From Cellulosimicrobium terreum (GTDB lineage: Bacteria > Actinomycetota > Actinomycetes > Actinomycetales > Cellulomonadaceae), in the NCBI GenBank assembly GCA_014803435.1, contig JACYFD010000001.1:1116001-1180000 (forward strand): 64,000 nucleotides of DNA, in the 5' to 3' direction. The position numbers and the translations under genes were made by a program. Shown here in pieces: positions 5,863-31,654 of the stretch. Below the pieces are notes generated by a model. That model was not told the DNA's origin. It worked only from the letters and a program-made list of their open reading frames with translations, and searched no databases. Within the stretch, counting starts at the first letter, position 1, and the number at the start of each line of letters is the position of its first letter.

Positions 5863-5917
5863 CTCCGCGTCGGGTGCCGGGCTTGACGCGGCCCGTCCGC
5901 TGCCTGCACCATCTCGT

Positions 5918-5933: not shown

Positions 5934-6001
5934 TGATCCTGCCCTGGCCAACGGCCACATCGTCCGGGGGAGGCCAGCCCGCCCGAGAGGGGCCAGCACG
6001 C

Positions 6002-11340: not shown

Positions 11341-11400
11341 GCACACGCTCGACTCGCGAGAACGTGACGGGGTGACGTAGCCCCGCCACCGTGCAAGCCC

Positions 11401-11434
11401 CGCGCGCCGGGGACCCCAGGGTCCCCGGCGCGCG
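11401..11434 (+). terminator. 16-bp perfect hairpin between binding-protein and ATPase genes
   Basis: CGCGCGCCGGGGACCC pairs exactly with GGGTCCCCGGCGCGCG around a CA tip. A smaller hairpin CGGGG-(8 nt)-CCCCG lies at 11368-11385. There is no T-tract. Because the ATPase gene downstream belongs to the same system and no clear new promoter is seen, a partial terminator or message-end stabiliser is likely. Confidence 0.7.
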
Positions 11435-11521
11435 ACCCACGAACTCAGCCGGAATCCGGCGCAGCCCGGCCCGGGCGCAGCAGCCCGGACCCGTGCGGCG
11501 TCGCAGCTCGGAAGGCCACCC

Positions 11522-13059
<1,538 letters not shown>

Positions 13060-13063
<4 letters not shown>

Positions 13064-14136
13064 GCACCGCCACCACAGCCACCCCCGCCACGCCCGGGTG
13101 GCAGCGCGCGGTCCAGCACCGCCTCTTCTGGCCGATCGTCGCGCTGGTCGCGCTCATCGTGGTCAACACGATCAACCGACCCAGCTTCCTGTCGATCCGG
13201 CTCCAGGACGGCCACCTGTTCGGCGCGCTGATCAACCTCCTCAAGAACGGCGCCCCGCTGCTCCTCGTGGCTCTCGGGATGACGCTGGTCATCGCGACCC
13301 GGGGCATCGACCTGTCGGTCGGCGCGGTCGTCGCGATCGCAGGCGCCGTCGCGCTGACCTACATCGCGTCGTCGCCCGACCCGGACAGCCTCGTCACCGT
13401 GCTGACCGCCGCGGGCATCGCCCTCGCGCTGTCGTTCGTCCTCGGTCTGTGGAACGGGTTCCTCGTCTCCGTGGTCGGGATCCAGCCGATCATCGCGACG
13501 CTCGTCCTCATGACCGCCGGCCGAGGCGTGGCGATGCTCATCACGGGCGGGCAGATCACGACCGTCACCAGCGCGCCGTTCAAGACGATCGGCTCGGGCT
13601 TCTGGTTCGGCATCCCGGTCGCGGTGGTCCTCGCGGCGATCGTGTTCGTCGCGGTCGCGCTGCTGACCCGCCGCACGGCGCTCGGCATGCTCATCGAGTC
13701 GGTCGGCATCAACCCCGAGGCGAGCCGTCTCGCGGGTGTGCGGGCACGGAGCATCACCTGGACCGTCTACGCGGTGTGCGCCCTGTTCGCCGGCCTCGCC
13801 GGACTGATCATCTCCTCGAGCACGATGGCTGCCGACGCCAACAACGCCGGGCTGTTCATCGAGCTCGACGCGATCCTCGCGGTCGTCATCGGCGGGACGT
13901 CGCTCGCGGGCGGCAAGTTCTCGCTGTCGGGCACGCTCGTCGGCGTCCTCGTCATCCAGACCCTCACCCTCACGGTGACGATGCTCGGCATCTCCCCGTC
14001 GGTGACCCCCTTGTTCAAGGCCATCGTCGTCATCGCGGTCTGCCTCGCGCAGTCTCCGAAGGTGCGCGGCATCGTGGCCGAAAGACGTCGGCGTGCTGCT
14101 CGCACCGCCGCCCAGGCAGCGGAGGTGGCAGCCTGA
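13060..14136 (+). CDS. sugar ABC transporter permease 1 (YtfT-like)
   Basis: A 358-residue permease with about eight to ten membrane segments. The family motif LVIATRGIDLSVGAVVAIAG lies near residues 77-96 and ILAVVIGGTSLAGG near residue 275. A short alanine/arginine-rich cytoplasmic tail ends the protein. It overlaps the ATPase gene by four bases and the second permease by one base (TGATG). CUT2 systems of the YtfQRT-YjfF type carry two different permeases, and that is the layout here. Confidence 0.94.
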
Positions 14137-15191
14137 TGTCCACGGTCAAGACCACGACGGAGACGTCCCCCCGCGAGCCGGGCGACGCACCCTCCGGTAC
14201 GCACGGCTCGGGGACGACGCGTCGTCGAGCTCGGCGCTTCTCCCTGGACCGGCGCTACCTGCCCGTGCTCGGGACGTTCGTCGTCCTCGCACTCATGCTG
14301 GTCATCGGCGGGTCCCGCTACGAGAACTTCCTGTCCGGGCGGGTCATCTCCAACCTGTTCATCAACAACTCGTTCCTCATCGTGCTCGCGGTGGGCATGA
14401 CGTTCGTGATCCTCACGGGCGGCATCGACCTGTCGGTCGGCTCGGTGGTGGCGCTGTCCGGCATCACCGCCGCGTCGTTGCTGCAGACGGGGTGGCCGGC
14501 GTGGGTCGTCATCCCGCTGGTGGTGCTGATCGGCACGGTCCTCGGGTTCGTCGTCGGCATCATGGTCCACGTCTTCGAGATACAACCGTTCATCGCGACG
14601 CTCGCCGCGATGTTCCTCGCCCGCGGCCTCTGCTATGTCATCAGCCTCGAGTCGATCCCCATCACGGACGAGACGTTCGTGTCGATCGCGAGCTGGAGCC
14701 AGAACTTCGGCGAGGAGTGGCGCATCACGACGAGCGTGGTCATCGCGCTCGTGGTCGTGGCCATCGCCTTCTACCTGCTGCACTACACGCAGTTCGGCCG
14801 GACGGTCTACGCGATCGGCGGCGGCGAGCAGTCGGCGATGCTCATGGGTCTTCCCGTGGCTCGGACCAAGGTGCTCGTGTACGTCGTCAGCGGCACCTGC
14901 GCCGGCATCGGCGGGCTGCTGTTCGCGATGTTCTCCCGGTCGGGCTACTCGCTGACCGGTGTGGGCATGGAGCTCGACGCGATCGCCGCCGTCGTCATCG
15001 GCGGAACGATCCTCACCGGCGGTACCGGGTTCGTGCTCGGGTCCGTCCTCGGTGTCCTCGTGCTCGGTCTCATCCAGACGATCATCACCTTCGAGGGCAC
15101 GCTGTCCTCGTGGTGGACCAAGATCGTCATCGGCGGGCTGCTGCTGATCTTCGTGGTCCTGCAGCGCGTGCTCGTCGTCAGACGACGCTGA
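14136..15191 (+). CDS. sugar ABC transporter permease 2 (YjfF-like)
   Basis: A 351-residue permease paralogous to the preceding one. A ~45-residue polar N-terminus rich in Thr and Arg precedes the first helix. The conserved motif FVILTGGIDLSVGSVVALSG sits near residue 90, and AIAAVVIGGTILTGGTGFVL near residue 285. It ends in a basic RRR tail and is followed by a strong terminator, so it closes the importer operon. Presence of the YjfF-like partner supports a furanose-sugar specificity rather than a ribose or xylose system. Confidence 0.94.
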   Translation: MSTVKTTTETSPREPGDAPSGTHGSGTTRRRARRFSLDRRYLPVLGTFVVLALMLVIGGSRYENFLSGRVISNLFINNSFLIVLAVGMTFVILTGGIDLSVGSVVALSGITAASLLQTGWPAWVVIPLVVLIGTVLGFVVGIMVHVFEIQPFIATLAAMFLARGLCYVISLESIPITDETFVSIASWSQNFGEEWRITTSVVIALVVVAIAFYLLHYTQFGRTVYAIGGGEQSAMLMGLPVARTKVLVYVVSGTCAGIGGLLFAMFSRSGYSLTGVGMELDAIAAVVIGGTILTGGTGFVLGSVLGVLVLGLIQTIITFEGTLSSWWTKIVIGGLLLIFVVLQRVLVVRRR

Positions 15192-15445: not shown

Positions 15446-18400
15446 ATGGAACGTCGTCCCAGCTCACCCCCGCGTACGGGCGCTCGCCGACCCCGGCTGC
15501 GCCCGGCCGCCGCGGGTATGCTGTCCGTCACTCTTGCCGCCGTGGGCGCGCTGGCCGTCGGGGTCCCGACGGCCGGTCCCGCGCTCGCCGCGGAGCCCGA
15601 CCTGCCCGACGGCGCGTGGCTCGACCCGTTCGACGGCACCGCGCTCGGCGCGGACTGGACCGTCGTCAACCCCGCGCCCGAGGCGCTCACGGTCGCGGAC
15701 GGCGAGCTCACGCTCACGTCCCAGACCGGCGACACCTACCAGGACTCGAACACGGCGAAGAACCTCGTCATGCTCGACGTGCCCGACGGCGACTTCACCC
15801 TCGTCACGCACGTCGAGGCACCGGTGACGAAGGTGTTCCAGGGTGCCGGCCTCATCGCCTGGCAGGACATCGACAACTACGTCCGCTCCGGCCTGACCTT
15901 CGTCGGTGACCTCGCCCCCTCCGGGAGGGCGATCGAGAACGACGTCGAGTCCGGCGGGGCGTTCACCGCGAACGCGTTCACCGACCGCCCCGGATCGACG
16001 GCCGAGACGCTGCGCATGCAGCGCACGGGCGACGTGATCGCGACGTCGTACTGGGACGGCGACTCGTGGGAGGGCGCAGGGAGCACCACGATCGACTTCC
16101 CGATCACCCAGGTCGGGGTCTACGCCCTCGCGGCGCAGGACGGCACGACGCACGCCGCCTCGTTCGACTACGTGGCGCTGGACGCGGCCGAGGGCGCGGA
16201 CCAGGTGCCGGACGGAACCTTCACCCTGAGCGGCAGCGGCGACCAGCGGTACCTCGTCGCGACCGACGACGGGCTGGCCCTGGACGACGAGCGGCCGACC
16301 TCGACCGTGGCGCTCGCCGCGACGGCGGTCGACGGTACCGAGGGGACCTCCCCGGTGACGCTCGCGGCGGACGACCGACCGGTCGTCCTCTCCGGCCAGC
16401 GCCTCGCCCTCGCCGACGCGGGCGCGGACCCCGTCGAGCTCCGCATCACCGACGCGGGTGGCGGGAAGGTGTGGCTGCGCAGCGCGGCCGACCCCGAGCT
16501 GTACGTCGGGGTGCGCGCCGAGGACGGCGCCCTGGAGCTCGGCTCGCGCGAGGCCGCGACGAAGCTCACCGTGTCCGCCGTGTCGAGCGCCGACCACGAG
16601 ATCACGGTCGACCTCGCCGGCGAGCGCACCGAGATGAGCGACGAGCTCTACGGCATCTTCTACGAGGACATCAACTACGCCGCGGACGGCGGCCTGTACG
16701 CCGAGCTCGTGCGCAACCGGTCGTTCGAGTTCAACAACCAGGACAACGGGTCGTTCAACGGCCTCACGGCGTGGAGCGCCGCGAACCGGGGCGGCGCGAC
16801 CGCGACGACCCAGGTCGTGAACGACGACGGCCGCCTCAACGCGACCAACCGCAACTACCTGAACCTCACCACTACGGGTGCCGGGGCGGGTGTGCGCAAC
16901 GCCGGCTACAACACCGGCCAGTTCGTCGAGGAGGGGGAGTCGTACGACTTCTCCGTCTGGGCCCGCTCCGCGACGGCGCAGGACCTCACGGTCCGGGTCG
17001 AGGACAACGCCGGGACGACCGCCTACGCGACCGGGACGGTCGCCGTCGACGGCTCGAACACGTGGAAGCAGTACGCGGTCACGATCGAGGCGACCGGGAC
17101 CACGAACGCCGGCCGGCTCGCCCTGCTGTCGGGCGCGGCGGGCACGGTCGCCGTCGACCAGGTCTCGCTGTTCCCGCAGGACACGTGGGTCGGAGCGGTC
17201 AACGGGAAGAGCCCGCTGCGCAAGGACCTCGCCGAGAAGATCGCGGCCCTGAACCCGCAGTTCCTCCGCTTTCCCGGCGGTTGCGTGACGAACGTCGGGA
17301 CGTTCGACACGTACGAGGAGAGCGGCTTCACCGACCGTCGTCGTACCTACCAGTGGAAGGAGACGATCGGGCCGGTCGAGGAGCGTGCGACCAACTGGAA
17401 CTTCTGGGGCTACAACCAGTCGTACGGCATCGGCTACCTCGAGTACTTCGAGTTCGCCGAGGACATGGGCGCGACGCCGCTCCCCGTCGTGTCGGTCGGG
17501 GCCAACGGCTGCGGCAGCACCATCCCCGAGATGACCGACCCCGTGCAGATCCAGCGCTGGGTCGACGACACGGTGGACCTCATCGAGTTCGCCAACGGCG
17601 ACGTGACGACCGAGTGGGGCGCCGTGCGCGCCGGGCTCGGCCACCCCGAGCCGTTCGGCCTGAAGTACATCGGTCTCGGCAACGAGGAGAACACGCACAC
17701 GTTCGAGGCCAACTTCCCGGCCTTCCGTGACGCGATCGCCGAGGCGTACCCGGAGATCGAGATCATCTCCAACTCCGGACCGGACGACACCGGCGCACGC
17801 TTCGACGAGCTCTGGGAGTTCAACCGCGAGCAGGACGTCGACATGGTCGACGAGCACTACTACAACGACCCGTCGTGGTTCCTCGAGAACGACGACCGGT
17901 ACGACTCGTACGACCGCGAGGGCCCTCAGGTCTTCCTCGGGGAGTACGCGTCACGCGGCAACACGTTCGCCAACGCCCTCGCGGAGGCGTCGTTCATGAC
18001 GGGCCTGGAGCGCAACTCGGATGTCGTGCGGCTCGCGTCGTACGCGCCCCTGCTCGCCAACGAGTCCTACGTCCAGTGGTCGCCCGACGCGATCTGGTTC
18101 GACAACGACGAGTCGTGGGGCTCGGTCAACTACTACGTCCAGCAGATGTTCTCCGCGAACGTGGGGGACCAGGTCGTCCCGAGCACGCACACCGGGCCGC
18201 CCGCGGAGGGCGCCACCGTGGACGGCGGGGTCTTCCTGTCGACCTGGAGCACCGCCGCGCAGTACGACAACGTCAGCGTGACGGACAACGCGAGCGGCGA
18301 CGTCCTGTTCTCGGACGACTTCGAGGCCGGAGCCGACCAGTGGGAGCCGCAGTCGGGTACGTGGGCCGCGCAGGACGGCGCGTACGTCCAGTCGGCGACG

Positions 18401-19348
18401 AACGTCACCGACGCCCGCTCGATCATCGAGGGCGCGTACGCGAAGGACTGGTCGAGCTACACGCTCGAGCTCGACGCCCGCAAGACGTCCGGGTCCGAGG
18501 GCTTCCTCGTCGGCTTCGCCGCCGGCGGCCCGAACGACTTCTACTGGTGGAACCTCGGCGGGTGGAACAACACGCGTCAGGCGCTCCAGCGGGCGGACGG
18601 CGGCAGCGCGAACGAGGTCGCCGCGCTCGAGAACAGCAGCATCGAGTCCGGGCAGCCGTACCACGTGAAGGTCGTCGTCGAGGGCTCGACGATCGAGCTC
18701 TACCTCGACGGCGAGCTGCAGATCTCCTACGAGCAGCCGGCCAAGAAGTCGCTCTACCAGGTCGTCACGCGTGACGACGACACGGGCGACGTGGTGGTCA
18801 AGGTCGTCAACCCGACCACGACCGCGGCGCGCACGCAGGTGCACGTCGAGGGCCTGACCGGCGGCGCCGCGATCGGCGCGGAGGCCACCGTCACGGAGAT
18901 GGTGGGTGCACCGTCGGACACGAACACCAAGGCCGACCCCGAGGCGCTCGTCCCGGTGGAGCGGACCCTGACCGGGGTGGGGGACGAGTTCTCCTACGAG
19001 TTCCCGGCGAGCTCGATCACCTTCGTGCGGCTGCACGAGTCGGCGACGCCCGTCGCCGAGCTCGACCTCGAGGTCACGGCGCAGCCGCGCTGCCTCGCGG
19101 GCAAGGCATACGTGGCGGTCCGCGCGACGAACGGTGAGGACGTCCCGGTCGACGTCGAGCTCGCCACGTCGTACGGCACGAAGACCTTCGCGGACGTGGC
19201 TCCCGGCAAGAACGGGTACCAGTCGTTCGCGGTCCGCGCGACCTCCGTCCCGGCGGGCTCGGTGACCGTCACCGGCTCGGGCGTCGTCGACGGTGCGGAG
19301 GTCACGACGCCGTACGACGTCGCGTACGACGCGCTCGACTGCGGCTGA
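15446..19348 (+). CDS. secreted multimodular alpha-L-arabinofuranosidase, GH51 (plant/extracellular type)
   Basis: A 1300-residue secreted enzyme. The order is: signal peptide (cut near ALAA, residue 49); an LamG/3-keto-glycoside-hydrolase-like sandwich (~53-250); a ~130-residue beta domain; the GH51 region (~391-930) with a CBM4_9-like insert (~430-590); a second sandwich domain (~925-1110) inserted before the GH51 C-terminal beta domain; and the two-cysteine module (~1203-1300). KYIGLGNEENTH carries the acid/base Glu (~747) and VFLGEYASRG the nucleophile Glu (~833). FYEDINYAADGGLYAELVRN is typical of extracellular GH51. It is predicted to strip arabinose from polymers outside the cell. GAGGAGAGG before the ATG fixes the start, and the paired operators at 15356/15390 precede it. 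Confidence 0.92.
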   Translation: MERRPSSPPRTGARRPRLRPAAAGMLSVTLAAVGALAVGVPTAGPALAAEPDLPDGAWLDPFDGTALGADWTVVNPAPEALTVADGELTLTSQTGDTYQDSNTAKNLVMLDVPDGDFTLVTHVEAPVTKVFQGAGLIAWQDIDNYVRSGLTFVGDLAPSGRAIENDVESGGAFTANAFTDRPGSTAETLRMQRTGDVIATSYWDGDSWEGAGSTTIDFPITQVGVYALAAQDGTTHAASFDYVALDAAEGADQVPDGTFTLSGSGDQRYLVATDDGLALDDERPTSTVALAATAVDGTEGTSPVTLAADDRPVVLSGQRLALADAGADPVELRITDAGGGKVWLRSAADPELYVGVRAEDGALELGSREAATKLTVSAVSSADHEITVDLAGERTEMSDELYGIFYEDINYAADGGLYAELVRNRSFEFNNQDNGSFNGLTAWSAANRGGATATTQVVNDDGRLNATNRNYLNLTTTGAGAGVRNAGYNTGQFVEEGESYDFSVWARSATAQDLTVRVEDNAGTTAYATGTVAVDGSNTWKQYAVTIEATGTTNAGRLALLSGAAGTVAVDQVSLFPQDTWVGAVNGKSPLRKDLAEKIAALNPQFLRFPGGCVTNVGTFDTYEESGFTDRRRTYQWKETIGPVEERATNWNFWGYNQSYGIGYLEYFEFAEDMGATPLPVVSVGANGCGSTIPEMTDPVQIQRWVDDTVDLIEFANGDVTTEWGAVRAGLGHPEPFGLKYIGLGNEENTHTFEANFPAFRDAIAEAYPEIEIISNSGPDDTGARFDELWEFNREQDVDMVDEHYYNDPSWFLENDDRYDSYDREGPQVFLGEYASRGNTFANALAEASFMTGLERNSDVVRLASYAPLLANESYVQWSPDAIWFDNDESWGSVNYYVQQMFSANVGDQVVPSTHTGPPAEGATVDGGVFLSTWSTAAQYDNVSVTDNASGDVLFSDDFEAGADQWEPQSGTWAAQDGAYVQSATNVTDARSIIEGAYAKDWSSYTLELDARKTSGSEGFLVGFAAGGPNDFYWWNLGGWNNTRQALQRADGGSANEVAALENSSIESGQPYHVKVVVEGSTIELYLDGELQISYEQPAKKSLYQVVTRDDDTGDVVVKVVNPTTTAARTQVHVEGLTGGAAIGAEATVTEMVGAPSDTNTKADPEALVPVERTLTGVGDEFSYEFPASSITFVRLHESATPVAELDLEVTAQPRCLAGKAYVAVRATNGEDVPVDVELATSYGTKTFADVAPGKNGYQSFAVRATSVPAGSVTVTGSGVVDGAEVTTPYDVAYDALDCG

Positions 19349-19355
19349 CCCGCCC

Positions 19356-19416
19356 GCCGAGAAGTGAGGATCCGCCCCTGATCGGACCGATCCGGGGGGG
19401 ATCCTCACTTCTCGGC
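19356..19416 (+). terminator. 61-bp near-perfect palindrome downstream of the GH51 gene
   Basis: An 18-bp perfect stem begins GCCGAGAAGTGAGG (19356-19373) and closes at 19399-19416. It continues inward with CCCC/GGGG and GATCGG-a-CCGATC, broken only by two mismatches. It starts 8 bases after the stop codon. It is long for a terminator and belongs with the related hairpins at 23766 and 28958. Confidence 0.75.
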
Positions 19417-19537
19417 ACCAGCTCGAGCCCTCGTGGCCGGTCCGACGGGCCACGAGGGCAGCTTCCCGACCACCGCACCCCCTGCACCCCGCCTGCACCA
19501 CCTGCACCGCCTGCACGACCTGACCCGAGGAGCAACG

Positions 19538-22500
19538 ATGCACCCGCCGTTCACTGGCCGTCCCGGCCGTCGTACCCGCCGCAGTCCCGGCCCCGGCCGC
19601 AGGCCGGGAGCGACCGCGAGGTTCGCCGCGCTCGCCGCAGCCACCGCCCTGGCCGTGACCGCCTGGGCGCCCACCGCCGTGGCGGCCGACGCGCTCGCCG
19701 ACCCCGTCCTCGACCTGTCGTTCGAGGGTGACGTGTCCGACGCCGGGTCGCTCGCCCACCCGGTGACCTTGCGGGGGCACGCCGGGTCCGCGCCGACCGG
19801 CTACGCCTTCGTCGACGGCGTCACCGACGGGACGCAGGCGCTGCGCCTCACCGGGAACACCTACCTCGACCTCGGGACGTCCACCGCGCTCCAGCCGGAG
19901 GACCTCACGCTCTCGTTCTGGATGGAGCCGAGCGGGAAACTCTCCGGCGAGCACCTCGTCACGTGGAACAAGGGCGCCTACAACTCGGACGGCTGGTACG
20001 TGTCCTCGGAGTCCGACACGGTGCCGCTCTCCATCTCGATCGGCCCTGCGTCGGGTCAGCCCTACAAGGTGCGCGTCGCGAGCTCTGACCGCGCGGCGTT
20101 CTTCCCCGCGGACACGTGGACGCACGTCGTCGTCACGTACGACCACACCACGAAGGACGTCGCCTTCTACCGCAACGGGGAGAAGGTGCCGTCCACCGTC
20201 GCCAACGCGGTCGGCGGCACCGCGACGGGCGTCCTCGGCTCCGACCCCGCGCTCCCCAAGACCATCGGGTTCAACGGCCCGCAGTACAACGGCGGCTACC
20301 TCGTGGCCGCACTCGACGAGTACCGCGTGTACGACGACGTGGCCGGCCTGGCGGACGTCGTCGGGCTCTACGAGGAGTCGGGCCGCGAGATCGACCGCGA
20401 CGCGGTCGCCGAGGACGACGCGGACGGCCTGTCCCTGCCCGAGCGCGCGACCGTCGCGCTCGTGCTGCCGGCCGCCGGGTCGCGCGGGTCGACCGTCACG
20501 TGGCAGTCGTCCGACCCCGGCGTCGTCGACACCGACGGCACCGTCACCCGCCCGGCGCTCGGCGAGGACGACGCCCACGTCACCCTGACCGCAACCGTCC
20601 GCTATCTCGACGGAGACCCTGTGGCCCGCACCTTCGACGTCCTCGTGCCCGCGCTCGTGGACGAGACCCCGCTCGAGGACACCACGCTGCCCTCGGTGCT
20701 CCTCTCCGACGACTTCCTGCAGAACGCCGCGGGCAAGGAGCACGAGTACCTCCTGAGCCTCGACTCGGAGAAGTTCCTCTACGAGTTCTACAAGGTCGGC
20801 GGGCTCACGCCGACGACCCCGACGGGCTACGCCGGCTGGGAGCGGAGCAACGCGGTGAACTTCCGCGGGCACGCGTTCGGCCACTACATGTCGGCGCTCG
20901 CGATGTCGTACTCGTCCACGCCGGACCAGGCGACCAAGGACGCGCTGTTCACCGAGATCGAGGAGGCGGTCGGGGGGCTCGCGCGCGTCCAGGACGCCTA
21001 CGCCACCGCCCATCCCGGCTCGGCGGGCTACGTGTCCGCGTTCCGCGAGTCGATCCTCGACCAGGTGCAGGGCACCGGGACGTCCGACGAGAACGTCATC
21101 GTGCCCTGGTACAACCTGCACAAGGTGCTCGCGGGCCTGCTCGACGTCGCCGAGTACGTCGACGGGCCGGTCGGCGACGAGGCGCTCGCGGTCGCGACCG
21201 ACTTCGGCCTGTACGTGGAGGGTCGCGTCTCGGAGCTCGACGACACGAGCGTCATGCTCGGCACCGAGTACGGCGGCATGAACGAGGCCCTCTACGAGCT
21301 GTTCGACCTCACGGGCGACGTCCGGATCAAGGACGCAGCCCAGGCGTTCGACGAGGTCACGCTCTTCCGTCAGCTCGCGGCCGGGCAGGACGTCCTGCCC
21401 GGCAAGCACGCCAACACGCAGATCCCCAAGCTGCTCGGCGCGCTCAAGCGCTACCGCGTCTTCACCCAGAACCCGGAGTACTACGCGCTCCTCACGCAGG
21501 CCGAGAAGGACGAGCTGCCGATGTACCTCGCGGCGGCGGAGAACTTCTTCGACATCGTCGTGGACGACCACACGTACGTGACCGGGGCGAACAGCCAGGC
21601 GGAGCACTTCCACGAGCCCGGCTCGCTGCACCAGTACGCGGACGAGCAGGGCGCCGCGCGCAACGCCGAGACGGCCGAGACGTGCAACGAGTACAACATG
21701 CTCAAGCTGTCGCGCGAGCTGTTCAAGCTGAGCAAGGACGTGCGGTACGCGGACTACTACGAGAACGCGTTCATCAACACGATCCTGTCGTCGCAGAACC
21801 CGGAGACGGGCACGACCACCTACTTCAACCCCATGGGGTCGGGCTACCACAAGGTGTTCAACCTGCCGTTCACCGAGTTCTGGTGCTGCACGGGGACGGG
21901 CATGGAGAACTTCTCCAAGCTGGGCGACTCGATCTGGTTCACCGGCCAGGGCTCGGTGTGGGTGAACATGTTCTTCTCCTCGACGTTCGACCACGCGGAG
22001 CAGAACCTGCGCGTGACCCAGGAGGCGAACCTGCCGAACGAGGACACCGTGACGTTCAGCGTCGAGGCGCTCGACGGCGGGGCGGTCGCGGAGGGCGCGA
22101 CGCTGCGGCTGCGCGTGCCGTCGTGGGCGGCGGGCGACGTGTCGCTCGAGGTGAACGGGTCCGCGGTCGAGCCCGTGGTGTCGCGCGGGTACGTCGTGCT
22201 GCCCGTCGCCGCGGGAGACGAGATCCGGTACACGATGCCGATGGAGGTGTCCGTCGTCGACACCCCGGACAACCCGTACTTCGTCGCGTTCCGCTACGGC
22301 CCGGTCGTGCTGTCGGCGAACCTGGGCGACGTCCCGGAGCCGGCCTCGCAGGGCACGGGCATCCTCGTGCGCTCCTCCACGCGCGACGAGGACGCGCAGA
22401 CCACGATCACCGCCGCGAACATGGGCGCGGACGAGTGGAAGGAACGTATCGCCGAGAACCTCGTGCGCGTCGAGGACGCTGCCGACGGTCGGGTACAGCT

Positions 22501-23743
22501 CCGGCTGCGCAACACGGCGGACGGCGAGGACCTGGTGTTCACGCCCCACCACACCAACTGGGACGTGACGTACGGGCTCTACCTCAACCTCGACGAGCCC
22601 GACTCCGCGGCATCGCAGGAACGGATCCTGCGGGCCAAGCAGGAGCTGCGCGACGTCGACCGCACCGTGGACGAGCTCACGAGCTTCGACAACAACAACT
22701 TCGAGAACGCGAAGAACCTCAAGCAGAGCGGCTCGTCGGTCGGAGCGTTCAACGGCCGCCAGTTCCGGCACGCGAACGGCACGGGGTGGTTCAGCTACGA
22801 CCTCATGATCGACCCGTCCTCCGCGACCAACCACCTCGGGGTCTCCCTCTACTCGGGGGACCAGGGCCGCACGTTCGACGTGTACGTGAACGACGAGAAG
22901 CTCAAGACCGTCACCACGGTCGCGGACGCCCCGGACAAGGACGCCCAGGGCTTCTACGTCGACTCGACCGAGCTCCCCGCGAAGTACCTGGAGGTCGGGG
23001 ACGGCACGCGCTGGAAGGTCGACAGCGCGGGGGAGCACGTCCTGGACGACGACGGCGAGCGGATCCCCGTCGTCACCGTGCGGTTCCAGGCCACGGGAGG
23101 CTGGGCGGGCGGCGTGTTCGGGCTGCGGCTCGACCGCGCGGCGTCGTACGACGCGACGCCGGGGCTGTCCGCGCTCGCGTTCGACACGGGCACGCTCGCT
23201 CCCGCGTTCGATCCCGCGACGACGGACTACACGCTCACGGTTCCCGAGGGCACGACGAGCGTCGTGCTCGACGCCGACCCGCACGTGCCGAGCGGGCTGG
23301 TCCGTGTCGACGGGGTGCTGGTCGACGACACCCAGGGCCGCGTCGTCGGGCTCCCCGAGGACGGCACGGCGCGGACGGTCGAGGTCGTCGGCGTGGCTCA
23401 GGACCACGAGACGGCGACGACCTACACGGTCGAGCTCGTGCCGGGCGCGGTCGTGCCCGAGCCGGAGGTCCCGCTCGACGTCGTGGTCTCGCCGCGCTGC
23501 ATGGCGGGCAAGGCGTACGTCGCCGTTCGGGCGACGAACGTCGGTGACGTGCCGGCTGACGTGAGCGTCACGACGCCGTTCGGGTCGAAGTCGTTCGCCG
23601 GTGTGGCACCTGGCAAGAACGGCTACCAGTCGTTCGCGGTGCGTGCGACGTCGGTCGCCGCCGGTGAGGTCACGGTGACGGGCACGGCGGGCGACCTCAC
23701 GAGCGCGGTCGAGGTCGCGTTCGACGGGCTCGACTGCGGCTGA
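19538..23743 (+). CDS. secreted GH127/GH146-type beta-L-arabinofuranosidase (DUF1680), multimodular
   Basis: A 1401-residue secreted protein. A signal peptide ends near AVAA (residue ~49). It is followed by an LamG-like sandwich (~55-280) and an atrophied bacterial Ig repeat (~290-385). The (alpha/alpha)6 catalytic domain (~390-800) and beta domains follow, then a cadherin-like sandwich (~1205-1305) and the two-cysteine module (~1310-1401). The zinc/cysteine catalytic set of GH127 is visible: ETCNEYN gives Glu714 and Cys716, and FWCCTGTG gives Cys783-Cys784, one of which should be the nucleophile. Such enzymes remove beta-L-arabinofuranose from plant hydroxyproline-arabinosides or pectin side chains. 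GAGGAG at 19527-19532 supports the ATG. No operator pair precedes it, so it may be read from upstream or an unseen promoter. Confidence 0.9.
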   Translation: MHPPFTGRPGRRTRRSPGPGRRPGATARFAALAAATALAVTAWAPTAVAADALADPVLDLSFEGDVSDAGSLAHPVTLRGHAGSAPTGYAFVDGVTDGTQALRLTGNTYLDLGTSTALQPEDLTLSFWMEPSGKLSGEHLVTWNKGAYNSDGWYVSSESDTVPLSISIGPASGQPYKVRVASSDRAAFFPADTWTHVVVTYDHTTKDVAFYRNGEKVPSTVANAVGGTATGVLGSDPALPKTIGFNGPQYNGGYLVAALDEYRVYDDVAGLADVVGLYEESGREIDRDAVAEDDADGLSLPERATVALVLPAAGSRGSTVTWQSSDPGVVDTDGTVTRPALGEDDAHVTLTATVRYLDGDPVARTFDVLVPALVDETPLEDTTLPSVLLSDDFLQNAAGKEHEYLLSLDSEKFLYEFYKVGGLTPTTPTGYAGWERSNAVNFRGHAFGHYMSALAMSYSSTPDQATKDALFTEIEEAVGGLARVQDAYATAHPGSAGYVSAFRESILDQVQGTGTSDENVIVPWYNLHKVLAGLLDVAEYVDGPVGDEALAVATDFGLYVEGRVSELDDTSVMLGTEYGGMNEALYELFDLTGDVRIKDAAQAFDEVTLFRQLAAGQDVLPGKHANTQIPKLLGALKRYRVFTQNPEYYALLTQAEKDELPMYLAAAENFFDIVVDDHTYVTGANSQAEHFHEPGSLHQYADEQGAARNAETAETCNEYNMLKLSRELFKLSKDVRYADYYENAFINTILSSQNPETGTTTYFNPMGSGYHKVFNLPFTEFWCCTGTGMENFSKLGDSIWFTGQGSVWVNMFFSSTFDHAEQNLRVTQEANLPNEDTVTFSVEALDGGAVAEGATLRLRVPSWAAGDVSLEVNGSAVEPVVSRGYVVLPVAAGDEIRYTMPMEVSVVDTPDNPYFVAFRYGPVVLSANLGDVPEPASQGTGILVRSSTRDEDAQTTITAANMGADEWKERIAENLVRVEDAADGRVQLRLRNTADGEDLVFTPHHTNWDVTYGLYLNLDEPDSAASQERILRAKQELRDVDRTVDELTSFDNNNFENAKNLKQSGSSVGAFNGRQFRHANGTGWFSYDLMIDPSSATNHLGVSLYSGDQGRTFDVYVNDEKLKTVTTVADAPDKDAQGFYVDSTELPAKYLEVGDGTRWKVDSAGEHVLDDDGERIPVVTVRFQATGGWAGGVFGLRLDRAASYDATPGLSALAFDTGTLAPAFDPATTDYTLTVPEGTTSVVLDADPHVPSGLVRVDGVLVDDTQGRVVGLPEDGTARTVEVVGVAQDHETATTYTVELVPGAVVPEPEVPLDVVVSPRCMAGKAYVAVRATNVGDVPADVSVTTPFGSKSFAGVAPGKNGYQSFAVRATSVAAGEVTVTGTAGDLTSAVEVAFDGLDCG

Positions 23744-23765
23744 CCCGTCCCGCGGGGTAGAACCG

Positions 23766-23816
23766 CGGTCCGCGAGGTAGAACCCCGTCATGACCGGGGT
23801 TCTACCTCGCGGACCG
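23766..23816 (+). terminator. 22-bp perfect hairpin downstream of the GH127 gene
   Basis: Arms at 23766-23787 and 23795-23816 pair perfectly around TCATGAC. The arm contains GAGGTAGAACCCC. A partial extra copy (GGGGTAGAACCGCGGTCC) lies just before, at about 23755-23771. It is probably the transcription terminator, and is a member of the repeat family discussed in the findings. Confidence 0.75.
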
Positions 23817-23857
23817 GGCAGCTCTCGCGCGGCATGCCGGCCATCTGGGGCTAGGCG

Positions 23858-23885
23858 TGTTAGCGCACACATGTTAGCGTTCACA
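23858..23885. promoter_or_regulatory. tandem operators TGTTAGCGCACACA and TGTTAGCGTTCACA
   Basis: Two operator copies lie directly end to end (23858-23871 and 23872-23885), about 65 bp before the double-GH43 gene. They match the pairs at 10065/10092 and 15356/15390 but with no spacing between them. Confidence 0.7.
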
Positions 23886-23949
23886 CTGTCGCCCGAGGAC
23901 GGGCGCGGACCCGGCGCTGCCGCCGGGGCACGACGACGAGGAGTCACCG

Positions 23950-26900
23950 ATGACCTCACGCCATGCTCGACTTCCCTCCCGCTCTCCTGACGCCCGACGG
24001 CCGGGCATGCCGGGCGACCGGCCGCTGCGCAACCGCTCCGGCCGCTCCGCGCTCGCCGGCCTGCTCGGTCTCGCGCTGGTCGGTCCGCTCGCGCCGGTGG
24101 CGGCCGCGACGGCGGCGACCGTGCCCGGCGCACCCGTTGCGACCGCACCCGTCGCGACCGCGCCCGTCGCGGCAGCGGCCCCGACGACCGACGGCCTGCA
24201 GCTCTGGCTCCCGCTCGACGAGACGACAGGCTCGACCGCGCACGACGCGTCGGGCAGCGGCCTCGACGCGACGCTCACCGGTTCCGGTGGCGGGTGGCGC
24301 GAGGGCCAGGGCCTGACCTTCGGCGGCGCCAACTACGTCGACCTGCCCGACGACCTGCTCGCCGGCTTCGACGCGGTCACCGTCAGCGCCGACGTCTGGG
24401 TCGACACGTCCCTGAGCGGCAACTACTTCTTCTACAACCTCGGCAACACGGCCGTCGGCAGCCCGCAGACGGGCGACGGCTACCTGTTCTCGTCGGGCAA
24501 CGCGAACTACCGCGCGTCGATCTCCGACCTCGCGTGGGGTCGTGAGCAGAATACCGCGAAGGCGCCCGCGGGCGCGCTCGCGCGCGGCGTCTGGAAGACC
24601 GTCACCTACACGCTGGGCGACGGCACGGGGACGCTCTACGAGGACGGCGCGCAGGTCGGCCAGAACGCGGCGGTCACGATCACGCCCGGCGACATCGGCG
24701 ACGGCACCACCACGGCCAACTCCCTCGGGAAGTCCGCGTACGCCGCGGACAACCTGTTCAAGGGCCGCATGAAGGACTTCCGGCTCTACGACCGCGCGCT
24801 CACCGCGGCGGAGGTCGCGGACATCTCGGCCGACGCCGCGCAGGACGCGGTCGCCGCAGACGCCGCCGCGCTCGACCTCGGCGACACGAGCGCCGTCGTC
24901 ACGGACCTCGTGCTGCCGGCCAAGGGCGTCGGTGGCTCCGCGGTCACGTGGACCACGTCCGACGCGGGCGTCGTCGCCGCCGACGGCACCGTGACCCGGC
25001 CCGCGGGCGAGGAGCCCGCGTCCGCCACGCTCACCGCGACCGTCGCGCTGCGCGGCGCCTCCGAGACCCGCACGTTCGACGTGACGGTGCTCCCGGGCGA
25101 CGGCGACCAGGCCAAGGCCGACGCCGCGGCCGCGGCGCTCGAGGTCGCGAACCTCGACGACGTGCGCGGCAACCTCGACCTGCCCACCACCGGGCTGCAC
25201 GGCGCCGACGTGGCCTGGGCCGCGTCGTCGGGCACGATCACCCCGGCCGGTGACGTCACGCGTCCCGCGCACGGGGAGGACGACGAGGACGTGACCCTCA
25301 CCGCGACGGTCACCGTCGGGGACGCGACCGCGACGCGCGAGCTGGTCGCGCACGTCCCGGCACTGCCGGAGCAGGAGGACCTCGAGGGGTACCTCTTCTC
25401 CTACTTCGTCGGGGAGGGCACGGCGACGGGGGAGCAGGTCTACTTCGGTCTCAGCCAGGGCAACGACGCGCTGAAGTACCAGAACCTCAACGACAACCAG
25501 CCGGTGCTCACGTCCGAGCTGGGGGAGAAGGGCCTGCGCGACCCGTTCATCATCCGCTCGCCCGAGGGCGACAAGTTCTACCAGATCGCGACCGACCTGC
25601 GGATCTACGACGGCAACGGCTGGGACGCCGCGCAGCGCCAGGGCTCACGCTCGATCATGGTGTGGGAGTCCACGGACCTGGTGACCTGGACCGACCAGCG
25701 GCTCGTCGAGGTGTCCCCGGAGACCGCGGGCAACACGTGGGCGCCCGAGGCGTACTACGACGACAGCATCGGCGCGTACGTCGTGTTCTGGGCGTCGAAG
25801 CTCTACGCGGAGGACGACCCGGGCCACACGGGCGACAGCTACAACCGCATGATGTACGCCACGACGCGTGACTTCGTGAACTTCTCCGAGGCGCAGGTCT
25901 GGATCGACCCGGGGTATTCGGTCATCGACTCGACCGTCGCGCAGGACGACGACGGCACGTACTTCCGGTTCACCAAGGACGAGCGGAACAACACCTCGTC
26001 GACGCCGTGCTCGAAGTTCATCCTCTCCGAGAAGGCGACCGAGCTGCGCTCGACCGACTACGACTTCGTCGCCGACTGCATCGGCAAGGCGAACTCCACC
26101 GGCCCGGGGATCAACCAGGGCGAGGGCCCGACGATCTTCCGCTCCAACGAGAACGACACGTGGTACCTGTTCATCGACGAGTTCGGCGGGCGCGGCTACG
26201 TGCCGTTCGAGTCGGACTCGCTCGACGCCGCCGAGTGGACCATGTCCACCGACTACGACATGCCGTCGCGCCCGCGCCACGGCACGGTGCTCCCGGTGAC
26301 GCAGGCCGAGTACGACCGCCTGCTCTCCACGTACCAGCCCGACGCGTTCGTCGAGTCCGTCGACGACGTCGCGGTCACCGTGCAGACCGGCTCGGCGCCG
26401 GTGCTCCCGGCGACCGTCACGGCGCACTTCGCGGACGGCTCCACCGGCCCCGCGGACGTCACGTGGGACGAGGTCGACCCGGCGTCGTACGCCCAGCCCG
26501 GCGAGGTCGTCGTCGAGGGGTCGCTGGCTCCCGGCACGAGCGTGCGCGCCAGGGCGGTCGTCACGGTGACCGACGACGCGGTGCCGGTCGAGGGCGTGAG
26601 CGTCACGCCCGCCTCGCTGGAGGTCGCGGTCGGCGGTGCACGACAGCTCACCGCGACGGTGACGCCCGCCAACGCGAGCGACCGGACCATCACGTGGGCG
26701 TCCGACGACGAGTCGGTCGTCACGGTGTCGGCAACCGGCCTCGTCAGCGCCGTCGCCGCCGGCCACGCCATGGTCACGGCCACGACCGCCGACGGGGAGC
26801 ACACCGCGTACGTCGCGGTCGAGGTGACGCAGGACGTGCCCGGGCTCGTCGTGCGCTACGCGCTCGACGAGACGAGCGGGACCTCGGCGGCCAACTCGGC

Positions 26901-28950
26901 CCCGGGAAGTGCGTTCGGTGCCGCGACCCTGACCGGCGGGGCGGCGTTCAGCGGGGACGAGGGCGTGACCCTCGACGGGACGAACGACTACGTCGACCTG
27001 CCCGACGACCTGCTCGCGGGTCTCGACGACGCCACGGTCAGCCTTGAGGTCAAGGTCGCCTCCGACCAGGCCACGCCGTACTTCATCTACGGCCTGGGCA
27101 ACTCCAGCGGCTCGGCCGGCAACGGCTACCTGTTCACCACGGGCAACGCGTACCGGACGTCCATCGCGACGGGCAACTGGACGACCGAGCAGACGGTCAC
27201 CAAGAACGCCAACCTGGCGCGCGGTGTCTGGAAGACCCTCACCTGGACCCTCGAGGGGACGACCGCGGTGCTCTACGAGGACGGCGTGGAGGTGGCCCGG
27301 CAGGCGAACGTCACGACCGACCCGGGCGACATCGGCGGCGGGACGACGCTCGCGAACTACATCGGCCGGTCGCTCTACTCCGGCGACAGGTACCTCAAGG
27401 GATCCGTGCGCGACTTCCGGGTCTACGACCGGGCGCTCGCGGCCGACGAGGTCTACGGGTTCGGGGCGAACCACACGGCGATCACGGGAGCCGAGCTCGA
27501 CGAGCTCAAGGTCCCGGCGATCGTGGACGACGCGAGCTCGACCGTCACCCTCCCGGTGGTGCCGGGCACGGACCTCACGGCCCTCGCCCCGGAGCTCACC
27601 GTCTCGCCGCTGGCGCGGGTCTCGCCCGAGAGCGGGGCGGTCCAGGACTTCACCGAGCCGGTCGAGTACACCGTGACCGGGCCGGACGGGTCGTCGCGCA
27701 CGTGGACGGTCCAGGCGAAGATCATGAACAGCCCGGCGCTCCCGGGGCTGTACGCCGACCCGAACATCGTGCAGTTCGGCGACATGTTCTACATCTACGC
27801 GACGACCGACGGGTACGCGGGCTGGGGCGGCAAGGACTTCTACGTGTGGAAGTCCGCCGACCTCGTCGACTGGGAGCGCTCGGAGGATCCGTTCCTCACG
27901 CTCGACGGCGCGAACGGGAACGTCCCGTGGGCGTCCGGGAACGCGTGGGCGCCGACGATCATCGAGCGCGACGGGAAGTACTACTTCTACTTCTCCGGTC
28001 ACAACCCGACGTACAACCGCAAGACGATCGGCGTCGCGGTGGCGGACAGCCCCGAGGGCCCGTTCACGGCGCAGCCGACCGCGATGATCACCAACGGTGA
28101 GGCCGTCACGTCGGGTCAGGCGATCGATCCCGCGGCCTTCCAGGACCCGGAGACGGGGACGTACTACCTGTTCTGGGGCAACGGCGGGGGCGGCCCGCTG
28201 TACGCCGAGCTGTCGGACGACATGCTCTCGGTGAAGCAGGACACGATCACCACGATCGAGGGCCTCCCCAGCTTCCGCGAGGGGGTCTTCCTCAACTACC
28301 GCGAGGGTCTGTACCACCTGACGTACTCGATCGACGACACCGGGTCGCCGAACTACAAGGTCGGCTACGCGACGTCGGACAGCATCGACGGACCGTGGAC
28401 CTCCCACGGCGTGATCCTGGAGAAGGACGAGAGCCAGGGGCTCCTCGGGACCGGGCACAGCTCGATCCTCAACGTCGCCGGCACGGACGACTGGTACATC
28501 GCGTACCACCGGTTCGGCATGCCGGGCGGTGACGGCAACCACCGCGAGACGACGATCGACCGCCTGACGTTCGGCGAGGACGGCCTCATGCAGAAGGTGA
28601 CGCCGACGCTCGAGGGCGTCGACCCGGTCGACGTCGCCCCGCAGCCCGAGGTGCAGCTCACCGTGGAGGCGACCCCGCGCTGCCTCGCCGGGAAGGCCTA
28701 TCTCGCGGTCCGCGCGACGAACGCGGGCGACGTGCCCGCCGACGTCACGCTGACGACGCCGTTCGGCGCGAGGGCGTTCGCGGACGTCGCACCGGGGAAG
28801 AACGCCTACCAGTCGTTCTCGGCCCGGGCAGCCTCGATCCCGGCCGGATCGGTCACGGTCACGGGCACGGCGACGCTCGTCGGCACGGACGGGCCCCAGG
28901 AGGTCACGACGTCGTACGACGTCGCGTTCGACGCGCTCGCCTGCGGCTGA
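23950..28950 (+). CDS. secreted double-GH43 enzyme with two LamG domains
   Basis: A 1666-residue secreted protein. The order is: signal peptide (hydrophobic ~34-53); LamG 1 (~80-285); two atrophied Ig-like repeats (~290-470); GH43 module 1 (~477-794); Big_4-like (~798-874) and Big_2-like (~881-961) domains; LamG 2 (~967-1171); an Ig-like linker (~1174-1257); GH43 module 2 (~1261-1557); and the two-cysteine module (~1568-1666). Module 1 has GLRDPFIIRSPEGDKF, SVIDSTVAQD and NQGEGPTIF. Module 2 has LYADPNIVQFGDMFYIYATT and QAIDPAAFQD. Both sets of acidic catalytic residues look intact, so two activities in one chain are likely, probably exo-acting arabinofuranosidases or arabinanases. GAGGAG precedes the ATG. 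Confidence 0.9.
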   Translation: MTSRHARLPSRSPDARRPGMPGDRPLRNRSGRSALAGLLGLALVGPLAPVAAATAATVPGAPVATAPVATAPVAAAAPTTDGLQLWLPLDETTGSTAHDASGSGLDATLTGSGGGWREGQGLTFGGANYVDLPDDLLAGFDAVTVSADVWVDTSLSGNYFFYNLGNTAVGSPQTGDGYLFSSGNANYRASISDLAWGREQNTAKAPAGALARGVWKTVTYTLGDGTGTLYEDGAQVGQNAAVTITPGDIGDGTTTANSLGKSAYAADNLFKGRMKDFRLYDRALTAAEVADISADAAQDAVAADAAALDLGDTSAVVTDLVLPAKGVGGSAVTWTTSDAGVVAADGTVTRPAGEEPASATLTATVALRGASETRTFDVTVLPGDGDQAKADAAAAALEVANLDDVRGNLDLPTTGLHGADVAWAASSGTITPAGDVTRPAHGEDDEDVTLTATVTVGDATATRELVAHVPALPEQEDLEGYLFSYFVGEGTATGEQVYFGLSQGNDALKYQNLNDNQPVLTSELGEKGLRDPFIIRSPEGDKFYQIATDLRIYDGNGWDAAQRQGSRSIMVWESTDLVTWTDQRLVEVSPETAGNTWAPEAYYDDSIGAYVVFWASKLYAEDDPGHTGDSYNRMMYATTRDFVNFSEAQVWIDPGYSVIDSTVAQDDDGTYFRFTKDERNNTSSTPCSKFILSEKATELRSTDYDFVADCIGKANSTGPGINQGEGPTIFRSNENDTWYLFIDEFGGRGYVPFESDSLDAAEWTMSTDYDMPSRPRHGTVLPVTQAEYDRLLSTYQPDAFVESVDDVAVTVQTGSAPVLPATVTAHFADGSTGPADVTWDEVDPASYAQPGEVVVEGSLAPGTSVRARAVVTVTDDAVPVEGVSVTPASLEVAVGGARQLTATVTPANASDRTITWASDDESVVTVSATGLVSAVAAGHAMVTATTADGEHTAYVAVEVTQDVPGLVVRYALDETSGTSAANSAPGSAFGAATLTGGAAFSGDEGVTLDGTNDYVDLPDDLLAGLDDATVSLEVKVASDQATPYFIYGLGNSSGSAGNGYLFTTGNAYRTSIATGNWTTEQTVTKNANLARGVWKTLTWTLEGTTAVLYEDGVEVARQANVTTDPGDIGGGTTLANYIGRSLYSGDRYLKGSVRDFRVYDRALAADEVYGFGANHTAITGAELDELKVPAIVDDASSTVTLPVVPGTDLTALAPELTVSPLARVSPESGAVQDFTEPVEYTVTGPDGSSRTWTVQAKIMNSPALPGLYADPNIVQFGDMFYIYATTDGYAGWGGKDFYVWKSADLVDWERSEDPFLTLDGANGNVPWASGNAWAPTIIERDGKYYFYFSGHNPTYNRKTIGVAVADSPEGPFTAQPTAMITNGEAVTSGQAIDPAAFQDPETGTYYLFWGNGGGGPLYAELSDDMLSVKQDTITTIEGLPSFREGVFLNYREGLYHLTYSIDDTGSPNYKVGYATSDSIDGPWTSHGVILEKDESQGLLGTGHSSILNVAGTDDWYIAYHRFGMPGGDGNHRETTIDRLTFGEDGLMQKVTPTLEGVDPVDVAPQPEVQLTVEATPRCLAGKAYLAVRATNAGDVPADVTLTTPFGARAFADVAPGKNAYQSFSARAASIPAGSVTVTGTATLVGTDGPQEVTTSYDVAFDALACG

Positions 28951-28957
28951 CCCACCC

Positions 28958-29040
28958 GCCGAGGTCGTACCGCAGTCCCCGAGGTAGTACCGGGGTCCGG
29001 ACTGCGGTACGACCTCGGCCGACTGCGGTACTACTTCGGC
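28958..29040. terminator. 21-bp perfect hairpin plus extra half-copy (alternative stems) after the double-GH43 gene
   Basis: Arms 28958-28978 and 28999-29019 pair perfectly. The arm reads GCCGAGGTCGTACCGCAGTC. The 20-base loop is itself another unit, CCGAGGTAGTACCGGGGTCC. A further inverted unit (GACTGCGGTACTACTTCGGC, ending at 29040) can pair with the loop or the first arm. The three-part layout allows two mutually exclusive folds. Confidence 0.7.
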
Positions 29041-29071
29041 ATTCCAGCAGCTCGACGAGGAGACGAACGAC

Positions 29072-31654
29072 ATGACAGCACGAACGACACACGGGCGACC
29101 GCGGGCCCGCGCGCTCGCCGTCGGGCTCGTGGGGGCGCTCACCGCGACCCTGCTGGGCGCCGCCACGGCGGCGCCGGCGTCCGCCGACGTCGGCGGGGCA
29201 GACGACGCCGGGCTGGTGGCCTGGTACCCGCTCGACGCGGCGAGCACGGCCGGCGGCCAGGCGGCGAACCTCGCCGACGGGTCGACGTTCGGACCGGCCA
29301 CGCTGGTCGGCGGGCAGGCGACGGCCGACGGCGCCACGCTCGACGGGACGGACGACTACGTCGACCTGCCCGACCACCTGCTCGCGGGCCTCACCGACGC
29401 CACGGTGAGCCTCGACGTCCTCGTCGCCACGGACCAGGCCACGCCGTACTTCATCTACGGACTGGGCAACAGCAGCGGCTCCAGCGGCAACGGCTACCTG
29501 TTCACGACGGGCAACGCGTACCGGACGTCGATCGCGACGGGGAACTGGTCCACCGAGCAGACCGTCACCAAGGGCTCGAACCTGACGCGCGGCGTCTGGA
29601 AGACGCTGACCTGGACGCTCTCGGGCACCACCGCCTCGCTCTACGAGGACGGCGTCCAGGTCAAGCAGTCCACCACCGTGACGACCGACCCGGGCCAGAT
29701 CGGCGCGGGCCAGACCACCGCGAACTACGTCGGGCGGTCGCTGTACTCGGGCGACAGGTACCTCAAGGGCCAGGTCCGGGACTTCCGGGTCTACGACCGC
29801 GCGGTCACCGCGGCAGAGGCGGCCGAGCTGGCGGCCGAGACCTCGACGTCGGCGGTCGACGCCGACGCCGCGGCACTCGACCTCGGCGACACGAGCGCGG
29901 TCACGGCCGACCTCGTGCTCCCGACGGCGGCGGCGCAGGGATCGCTCGTCACCTGGATGACGTCGGCCCCGGGGGTCGTGTCCGCGGCGGGCAAGGTCAC
30001 GCGCCCCGCTGCGGGCGAGGACGACGCGACGGCGACGCTGACGGCGCTCGTCAGCCGCGGTGCCGTCGCCCGCACGGCGACGTTCGAGGTCACCGTCCTC
30101 GCGCACCTCCTGCCCGGCGAGGCAGCGCAGTGGGACGCGGAGCACGCGTCGATCCCGAACCTCGGCGACGTGCGGGGGAACCTCACGTTCCCGGCGACGG
30201 GCCGGAACGGTTCGTCCCTCACGTGGATCAGCGCGGACCCCGACGTGGTCTCGCCCACCGGCGAGGTGACGCGGCCCGCGCACGGCGCGCCGGCCGCCGT
30301 CGTGCAGCTGACCGTCACGGCGTCCAAGGACGGCGCGACCGCGACGCACACCTATGACGCCACGGTCCGGCCCCTGCCGGCCGAGGCCGACTACGAGGGC
30401 TACTTCTTCCCCTACTTCGAGGGGGAGAGCACGGCCGACGGCGAGTCGATCTACTTCAGCGCGAGCAACGGCAACGACCCGCTCGACTGGATCGAGCTCA
30501 ACGAGGGCGAGCCGGTCCTCACCTCCGGGCTCGGCGAGAAGGGTCTGCGCGACCCGTTCGTCATCCGCTCGCCTGAGGGCGACCGGTTCTTCCTGCTCGC
30601 GACGGACCTGCGCATCTACGGCGGCAACAACTTCGGCAACGCGCAGGAGCGCGGGTCGCTGAGCCTCATGATCTGGGAGTCGACCGACCTGGTGCACTGG
30701 TCGGAGCAGCGCTCGGTCAAGGTGTCGAGCGACTACGCGGGCAACACGTGGGCGCCCGAGGCGTTCTACGACGCCCAGCGCGGCGAGTACATCGTGTACT
30801 GGGCGTCGGCCCTCTACCCGACGACGAGCACCACGGGTCGTCAGATCTCGACCAGCTACCAGCGCATGATGTACGCGACGACGCGCGACTTCGTGACGTT
30901 CAGCGAGCCGCAGGTGTGGATCGACGAGAAGCGCGGCAACGGGCTCGGCATGATCGACTCGTCGATCGTCGAGGACGAGGGCACGTACTACCGGTTCACC
31001 AAGGACGAGGCGTACATGATCCCGCGCCTGGAGAAGTCGACGGACCTGCGCTCGACCGACTGGGACCTCGTCGCCGAGAAGATCGGGTACGGCCAGCCGA
31101 ACCCGTGGGGCGGGACGCTCACGGCGGGCGAGGGCCCGACGGTGTTCAAGTCGAACACCGAGGAGAAGTGGTACCTGTTCGTCGACCAGCCGAGCTACCA
31201 CGGCGGTCAGGGGTACCTTCCGCTCGAGTCGACCGACCTCGACTCCGGCGTCTGGACGTCGGTCGACGCGCACCTGCCGAGCAGCCCGCGGCACGGCACG
31301 GTCCTGCCCGTCACGGCCGCGGAGCACGCCGCCCTGCTTGCCGCGTACGGCGACGAGCCGCCCGCGCCGGAGCTCGACCTCGCGGTCGACGTGACGCCGC
31401 GCTGCCTCGCCGGCAAGGCGTACGTGGCGGTAAGGGCGACCAACGGCGAGGACGTCCCCGTCGACGTCACGCTCTCCACGCCGTACGGCGAGAAGGCGTT
31501 CGCCGCCGTCGCGCCCGGCAAGAACGCCTACCAGTCGTTCGCCGTTCGTGCGGCGACCGTCGAGGCGGGCACCGTCACGGTGACGGGAACCACGGTGCAG
31601 GGCGGGACCGAGGTCCCGGTCGACGTCGCGTACGACGCGCTCGCCTGCGGCTGA
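29072..31654 (+). CDS. secreted GH43 enzyme with LamG and Ig-like domains
   Basis: An 860-residue secreted protein. The signal peptide ends near PASA (residue ~32). LamG (~48-250) is followed by two atrophied Ig-like repeats (~255-435), GH43 (~440-757) and the two-cysteine module (~767-860). The GH43 part has GLRDPFVIRSPEGDRFFLLA, GMIDSSIVEDEGTYY and TAGEGPTVFKSN, closely matching module 1 of the preceding double-GH43 protein. Its LamG, however, is closest to LamG 2 of that protein. It appears built by shuffling pieces of its neighbour. It lacks its own operator pair. GAGGAG lies just before the ATG. Confidence 0.9.
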   Translation: MTARTTHGRPRARALAVGLVGALTATLLGAATAAPASADVGGADDAGLVAWYPLDAASTAGGQAANLADGSTFGPATLVGGQATADGATLDGTDDYVDLPDHLLAGLTDATVSLDVLVATDQATPYFIYGLGNSSGSSGNGYLFTTGNAYRTSIATGNWSTEQTVTKGSNLTRGVWKTLTWTLSGTTASLYEDGVQVKQSTTVTTDPGQIGAGQTTANYVGRSLYSGDRYLKGQVRDFRVYDRAVTAAEAAELAAETSTSAVDADAAALDLGDTSAVTADLVLPTAAAQGSLVTWMTSAPGVVSAAGKVTRPAAGEDDATATLTALVSRGAVARTATFEVTVLAHLLPGEAAQWDAEHASIPNLGDVRGNLTFPATGRNGSSLTWISADPDVVSPTGEVTRPAHGAPAAVVQLTVTASKDGATATHTYDATVRPLPAEADYEGYFFPYFEGESTADGESIYFSASNGNDPLDWIELNEGEPVLTSGLGEKGLRDPFVIRSPEGDRFFLLATDLRIYGGNNFGNAQERGSLSLMIWESTDLVHWSEQRSVKVSSDYAGNTWAPEAFYDAQRGEYIVYWASALYPTTSTTGRQISTSYQRMMYATTRDFVTFSEPQVWIDEKRGNGLGMIDSSIVEDEGTYYRFTKDEAYMIPRLEKSTDLRSTDWDLVAEKIGYGQPNPWGGTLTAGEGPTVFKSNTEEKWYLFVDQPSYHGGQGYLPLESTDLDSGVWTSVDAHLPSSPRHGTVLPVTAAEHAALLAAYGDEPPAPELDLAVDVTPRCLAGKAYVAVRATNGEDVPVDVTLSTPYGEKAFAAVAPGKNAYQSFAVRAATVEAGTVTVTGTTVQGGTEVPVDVAYDALACG

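Follow-up and report, generated by a model that had tools for sequence, protein, structure and literature searches.

Arabinan enzymes of the window and their shared module

The window, a stretch of 64,000 nucleotides from the genome of Cellulosimicrobium terreum, possesses on its forward strand four genes for secreted arabinan enzymes which end in the same module. These are a GH51 arabinofuranosidase with an N-terminal signal peptide (15446-19348; ORF start at about 15446, stop at 19348), a GH127 beta-L-arabinofuranosidase-like protein (19538-23743; start at about 19538, stop at 23743), a double GH43 protein (23950-28950) and a further GH43 protein (29072-31654). The module is situated at positions 19055-19345, 23459-23740, 28642-28947 and 31364-31651, respectively. 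In all four copies it comprises about 95 residues with two fixed cysteines, and the stop codon follows immediately. The other copies are 65-75% identical to the first one, and about 50 columns are invariant in the four-copy alignment. A six-frame motif scan of the window revealed no further copies. Gene conversion among the window copies was considered and no clear sign of it was seen, the nearest relatives in other species being 75-83% identical and the paralogues 66-74%.

A complete sugar ABC transporter (10207-15191, forward strand) is positioned directly upstream of the four enzymes. It is composed of a binding protein (10207-11340), an ATPase (11522-13063) and two permeases (frames 12646-14136 and 12834-15191), and none of its proteins contains the module. 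An earlier note on this DNA had described a shared C-terminal module with two cysteines on the four enzymes, and the coordinates and the alignment confirm it; the GH51, GH127, double GH43 and GH43 assignments were likewise recovered by Pfam and NCBIfam. The same note had stated that cytosolic enzymes and a small anchored GH43 lack the module. In agreement with this, it is missing from a GH43 protein with an N-terminal membrane anchor (9177-9983) and from another one with no visible signal peptide (1011-2375).

Copy number, distribution and fold of the module family

A profile built from the four window copies was searched against the whole genome (4.49 Mb), as the earlier note had proposed to do for actinobacterial proteomes. 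It gave 53 matches with E-values down to 2e-54, of which 52 are real. The remaining match (22 bits) ended 148 residues before the stop codon and was discarded as not terminal. All four copies of the earlier note are genuine, but its count of four was thus a large underestimate. More copies were found in the relatives, all 12 Cellulosimicrobium congeners showing 33-64 matches each. Within the same family, the module was matched in 76 of 150 genomes and in 15 of 25 genera (at most 34 candidates per genome were scored, so that high counts are lower bounds). Apart from Cellulosimicrobium only two or three genera of the family are rich in the module, and it is rarer in the rest. No match was found in six genomes from other families of the order. 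Across the phylum, with 12 candidates scored per genome, at least 6 of 396 genomes were matched; one is the present genome, and five come from a single further family of its order. Micromonospora, Phytohabitans, Plantactinospora, Nonomuraea and Acrocarpospora possess 2-12 copies each (one genome per genus). A record titled Sphaerisporangium cinnabarinum ATCC 31213 (QAPD01; L063, L072, L095, L104) is Cellulosimicrobium-like in its size of 4.4 Mb, its 34 module matches and its possession of the same gene cluster, and it looks mislabelled.

Searches with Pfam and NCBIfam on the four full proteins and with Pfam on the 52 single modules gave no convincing match on the module. The most frequent Pfam match was DUF4232, found in 4 of 52 modules with a best E-value of 0.003. 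Sequence search in the PDB returned matches at chance level only, including de novo Ig-like designs, and in the open-access literature no description of the module was found in work on Cellulosimicrobium secretomes or on C-terminal domains. The module is thus a real, very abundant new domain family with no match in Pfam, NCBIfam or the PDB sequences, and the distinct family foreseen in the earlier note is borne out.

The position of the module is highly conserved. Among all the loci collected, 200 distinct copies end in a stop codon; all of them are at the extreme C-terminus and none is internal, and in 158 the profile match reaches the very last residue. The module occurs once per protein, always as the last domain. 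In the C. terreum genome the last or penultimate residue is a cysteine in 50 of the 52 copies, while the other two lack both cysteines. Across the 200 copies both cysteines of the pair are present in 189, neither in 10 and only the first in one, and 188 copies possess exactly two cysteines. The single exception, from Cellulosimicrobium sp. CUA-896 (L083:644-921), is split across two frames by a frameshift or a sequencing error. Among intact copies the association of the two cysteines is complete (Fisher P 5e-17, related copies counted separately). As they are present together or absent together, the two residues probably form one disulfide.

The ten cysteine-free copies represent three protein groups. 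One of them, a GH127 carrier (#34, L162:2308-5145), has a Tat-type signal (DRRRFLQ), which would suit folding before export. Tat export was considered as the cause of cysteine loss and fits this protein. Carrier #33 and a group of GH43 orthologues possess no Tat-type signal, and therefore it does not explain all the losses.

AlphaFold2, run on the 28642 copy with 59 aligned copies, predicted an all-beta, seven-strand Ig-like sandwich (pLDDT 97.1, pTM 0.87). Against this model a structural aligner scored 47 chains with a Z of at least 8, most of which are Ig-like domains. The top match was residues 935-1043 of the lacto-N-biosidase of Trueperella pyogenes (PDB 9fyn), whose Z of 9.5 is tied with others, while Foldseek alone found nothing below E 0.001 (best 0.008). 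The predicted fold is hence of the Ig-like type which the earlier note had suggested, and the disulfide clamp proposed there would fit the strict co-occurrence of the cysteines. The C-terminal region of the Trueperella enzyme resembles the module over 86 residues (rmsd 3.1, 19% identity) and also belongs to an actinobacterial glycosidase. However, it was missed by the sequence profile, and kinship is not shown, since unrelated Ig-like domains reach the same Z. Ig-like spacers (Big_2, aBig_2, PKD) and the Ig-like domains of GH2 share the fold class at Z 8-9.5; unlike them, the module has no Pfam sequence match and is always terminal and single with two fixed cysteines. The fold class is common and tells no function.

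Strand alternation, rather than coordinates, was taken as the basis for presuming which residues are exposed. On this basis strands A, B and E would present one exposed face with R13, K18, Y20, A22, R24, N54, Y56 and S58 (numbered as in the 28642 copy). Conservation is higher there than on the opposite face, with a mean entropy of 1.23 vs 2.17 bits (P 0.002). Ig-like domains of bacteria often serve as spacers or caps, and both the terminal position and a disulfide enclosing the domain would also fit a structural cap which binds no ligand and shields the C-terminus from proteases or aids folding after export; the three protein groups which retain the module without cysteines point the same way. 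Nevertheless, spacers tend to differ in position and number from protein to protein, while the module is always single and last, and the presumed exposed face is nearly as conserved as the core. We consider such a role unlikely.

Carriers and export

The carrier proteins, classified by Pfam, belong to about 14 glycosidase families and also include proteases, phosphatases, a lipase and an asparaginase. Besides the window enzymes, the glycosidase carriers represent GH2, GH3, GH13 (pullulanase), GH26, GH43, GH76, GH81, GH92 (several), GH95, GH97, GH127 and a GH63/65-like protein. The others are ThuA/GSDH proteins, 3-keto-disaccharide hydrolase-like domains, a rhamnogalacturonase-like protein, a subtilase, an M28 peptidase, endonuclease/5'-nucleotidase-like and metallophosphatase proteins, PAP2, GDPD, a GDSL lipase, an alpha/beta hydrolase and an asparaginase. 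Most carriers are exo-acting or finish small substrates, which is a tendency only, as pullulanase, GH26 and GH81 are also carriers.

An N-terminal signal peptide was recognized by inspection in 51 of the 52 carriers. For the remaining one, the GH63/65-like carrier (#48, L155 around 3300-6681), no start codon with a signal peptide lies in frame, and an upstream frameshift or assembly error is likely. Homologues in the same genome were compared for GH43, GH3 and S8, which were selected because each includes a carrier; signal peptides were assigned by visual inspection and a simple script instead of a trained predictor. All six GH43 carriers have a signal peptide, while the four non-carriers consist of three without signal peptide and one membrane-anchored protein. 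Similarly, the single GH3 carrier is exported, and the five non-carriers are four without signal peptide and one membrane-anchored. In S8 there are one exported carrier, one exported non-carrier and one non-exported non-carrier. Pooled over the three families, a cleavable signal peptide occurs in 9 proteins, 8 of which possess the module, vs 0 of the 10 which are unexported or N-terminally membrane-anchored (Fisher P 1e-4). Restriction to secreted enzymes, as foreseen in the earlier note, thus holds in these families, the module being absent from all their non-exported homologues. The one exported subtilase without it indicates that the module is not needed for all exported enzymes. In the non-exported subtilase (L243, G000:C9:33492-34415) the hexapeptide YSTPLP is repeated about eight times ahead of the catalytic domain.

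The diversity of the carriers rules out a single polysaccharide as their common substrate. Binding to pectin or arabinan, as the earlier note had supposed, is unlikely, since the module also ends mannosidases, a pullulanase, proteases, phosphatases, a GDSL lipase, a glycerophosphodiesterase and an asparaginase. A carbohydrate-binding module new to the libraries used may instead bind a widespread environmental polysaccharide and bring the enzymes to plant or fungal biomass. Known modules of this kind show the same size, beta-sandwich fold, position at the C-terminus, terminal disulfide and conserved face of aromatic and arginine residues. Glycosidases form the majority of the carriers, and the fold matches at Z of about 8-9.5 include glycosidase domains as well as a glycan-binding protein. 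Yet the asparaginase, subtilase, M28 peptidase, 5'-nucleotidase-type, GDPD, PAP2, GDSL and ThuA carriers have no common polysaccharide substrate, and the typical cellulases, the xylanase and the LPMO of the genome lack the module. The genome has four CBM13-type and nine CBM2 matches, and none of them overlaps with the 52 carriers. The ten CBM2/CBM13 proteins scanned are a GH26, a GH64, an alpha-lytic-type protease, a GH16, a GH10, two GH6, an LPMO10, a GH48 and a GH9 protein. As the two sets do not overlap, enzymes for insoluble polymers use classical binding modules, in contrast to the mostly exo-acting carriers.

The C-terminal cellulose-binding modules CBM2 (PF00553) of the same genome resemble the module in having about 100 residues and a beta-sandwich, in being often the last domain of secreted glycosidases and in possessing a cysteine near the start and another at or near the C-terminus. 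This likeness is one of architecture only. The module has no tryptophan platform and is carried by other enzymes, and none of its 52 copies matched CBM_2 in Pfam at E 0.01. CBM2 was also rejected as a distant relative, as hhalign against six CBM2 copies of the genome gave a probability of 0.6%, and this missing profile relation further speaks against a polysaccharide-binding role. On the whole, such a role seems about as improbable as that of a cap.

Possible targeting to the cell and comparison with known systems

The function which we favor, tentatively and at somewhat less than even confidence, is that of a C-terminal targeting module of exported proteins, which would hold mostly exo-acting enzymes near the producing cell. 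The considerations behind it are the 52 copies on unrelated enzymes, the C-terminal place in all 200 distinct copies, the restriction to exported proteins in the tested families, the lack of overlap with CBM2/CBM13, the one conserved face and the sugar ABC transporter upstream. The carriers would be exported by Sec, or by Tat in at least one case, after which a bond between the two cysteines would fasten the first strand to the C-terminus. The conserved, putatively exposed face (R13, Y20, R24, N54, Y56) may then recognize the same ligand in every carrier, the likeliest candidate being a surface glycan or polymer of the producing cell, and such retention would keep the product-releasing enzymes near uptake systems. 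The ligand, the retention at the cell, the disulfide and the exposure of the face are inferred. The membrane-anchored GH43 and GH3 homologues without module would be expected if the module replaces another means of retention.

No paper placing any carrier on the cell was found in the open-access literature. The GH49 dextranase of Cellulosimicrobium sp. THN1 has about 100 C-terminal residues without assignment, and in the medium only its 68 kDa catalytic part is found, the C-terminal portion being lost from a 114 kDa precursor (PMC9691899). If this enzyme possesses the module, the truncation would fit proteolytic release from the cell, while ordinary degradation explains it equally well. No GH49 was found in the Cellulosimicrobium congeners by a search which gave no match in a control genome either.

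The libraries searched lack the domain found at the end of about fifty enzymes per genome, and annotation thus misses what may decide where these enzymes work. If the module does hold enzymes at the cell, the released sugars, phosphate and amino acids would be kept without sortase anchoring, and the module would offer a small ready-made fusion tag for displaying proteins on actinobacterial cells. The copies have no LPXTG motif with hydrophobic tail, as had been noted for the window, and end in the cysteine plus 0-8 residues. The genome possesses only one LPXTG-type (Gram_pos_anchor) protein, which is not a carrier, hinting that sortase anchoring is hardly used. That protein (L194, G000:C8:546532) is small and CHRD-like with a sortase-like gene directly downstream, suggesting that this sortase serves one substrate.

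A shared C-terminal module directing many unrelated exported enzymes is known from the dockerins of cellulosomal enzymes, the Type IX C-terminal domains and the WxL wall-binding domains. Targeting by the present module would resemble all three in architecture, and no sequence relation to them was seen. It is a less likely, though possible, extension of the targeting reading that one general C-terminal tag, recognized by a receptor or surface polymer, directs much of the secreted enzyme set of an actinobacterial lineage. Such sorting would need neither sortase nor SLH and would correspond, in Gram-positive bacteria, to dockerin or Type IX sorting. The Type IX system itself requires an outer membrane. 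Dockerins are small calcium-binding helical domains. A dockerin-like module, by which receptor domains on a surface or scaffold protein would gather the enzymes into a multi-enzyme complex, would share with cellulosomes the one small C-terminal module with a conserved exposed face on many unrelated enzymes, but it is the least probable of the alternatives, as a non-decisive search found no receptor, scaffold or sorting protein and none of the 52 modules matched a dockerin in Pfam. The module is predicted to be an all-beta sandwich, in contrast to the duplicated calcium-binding helical motif of dockerins.
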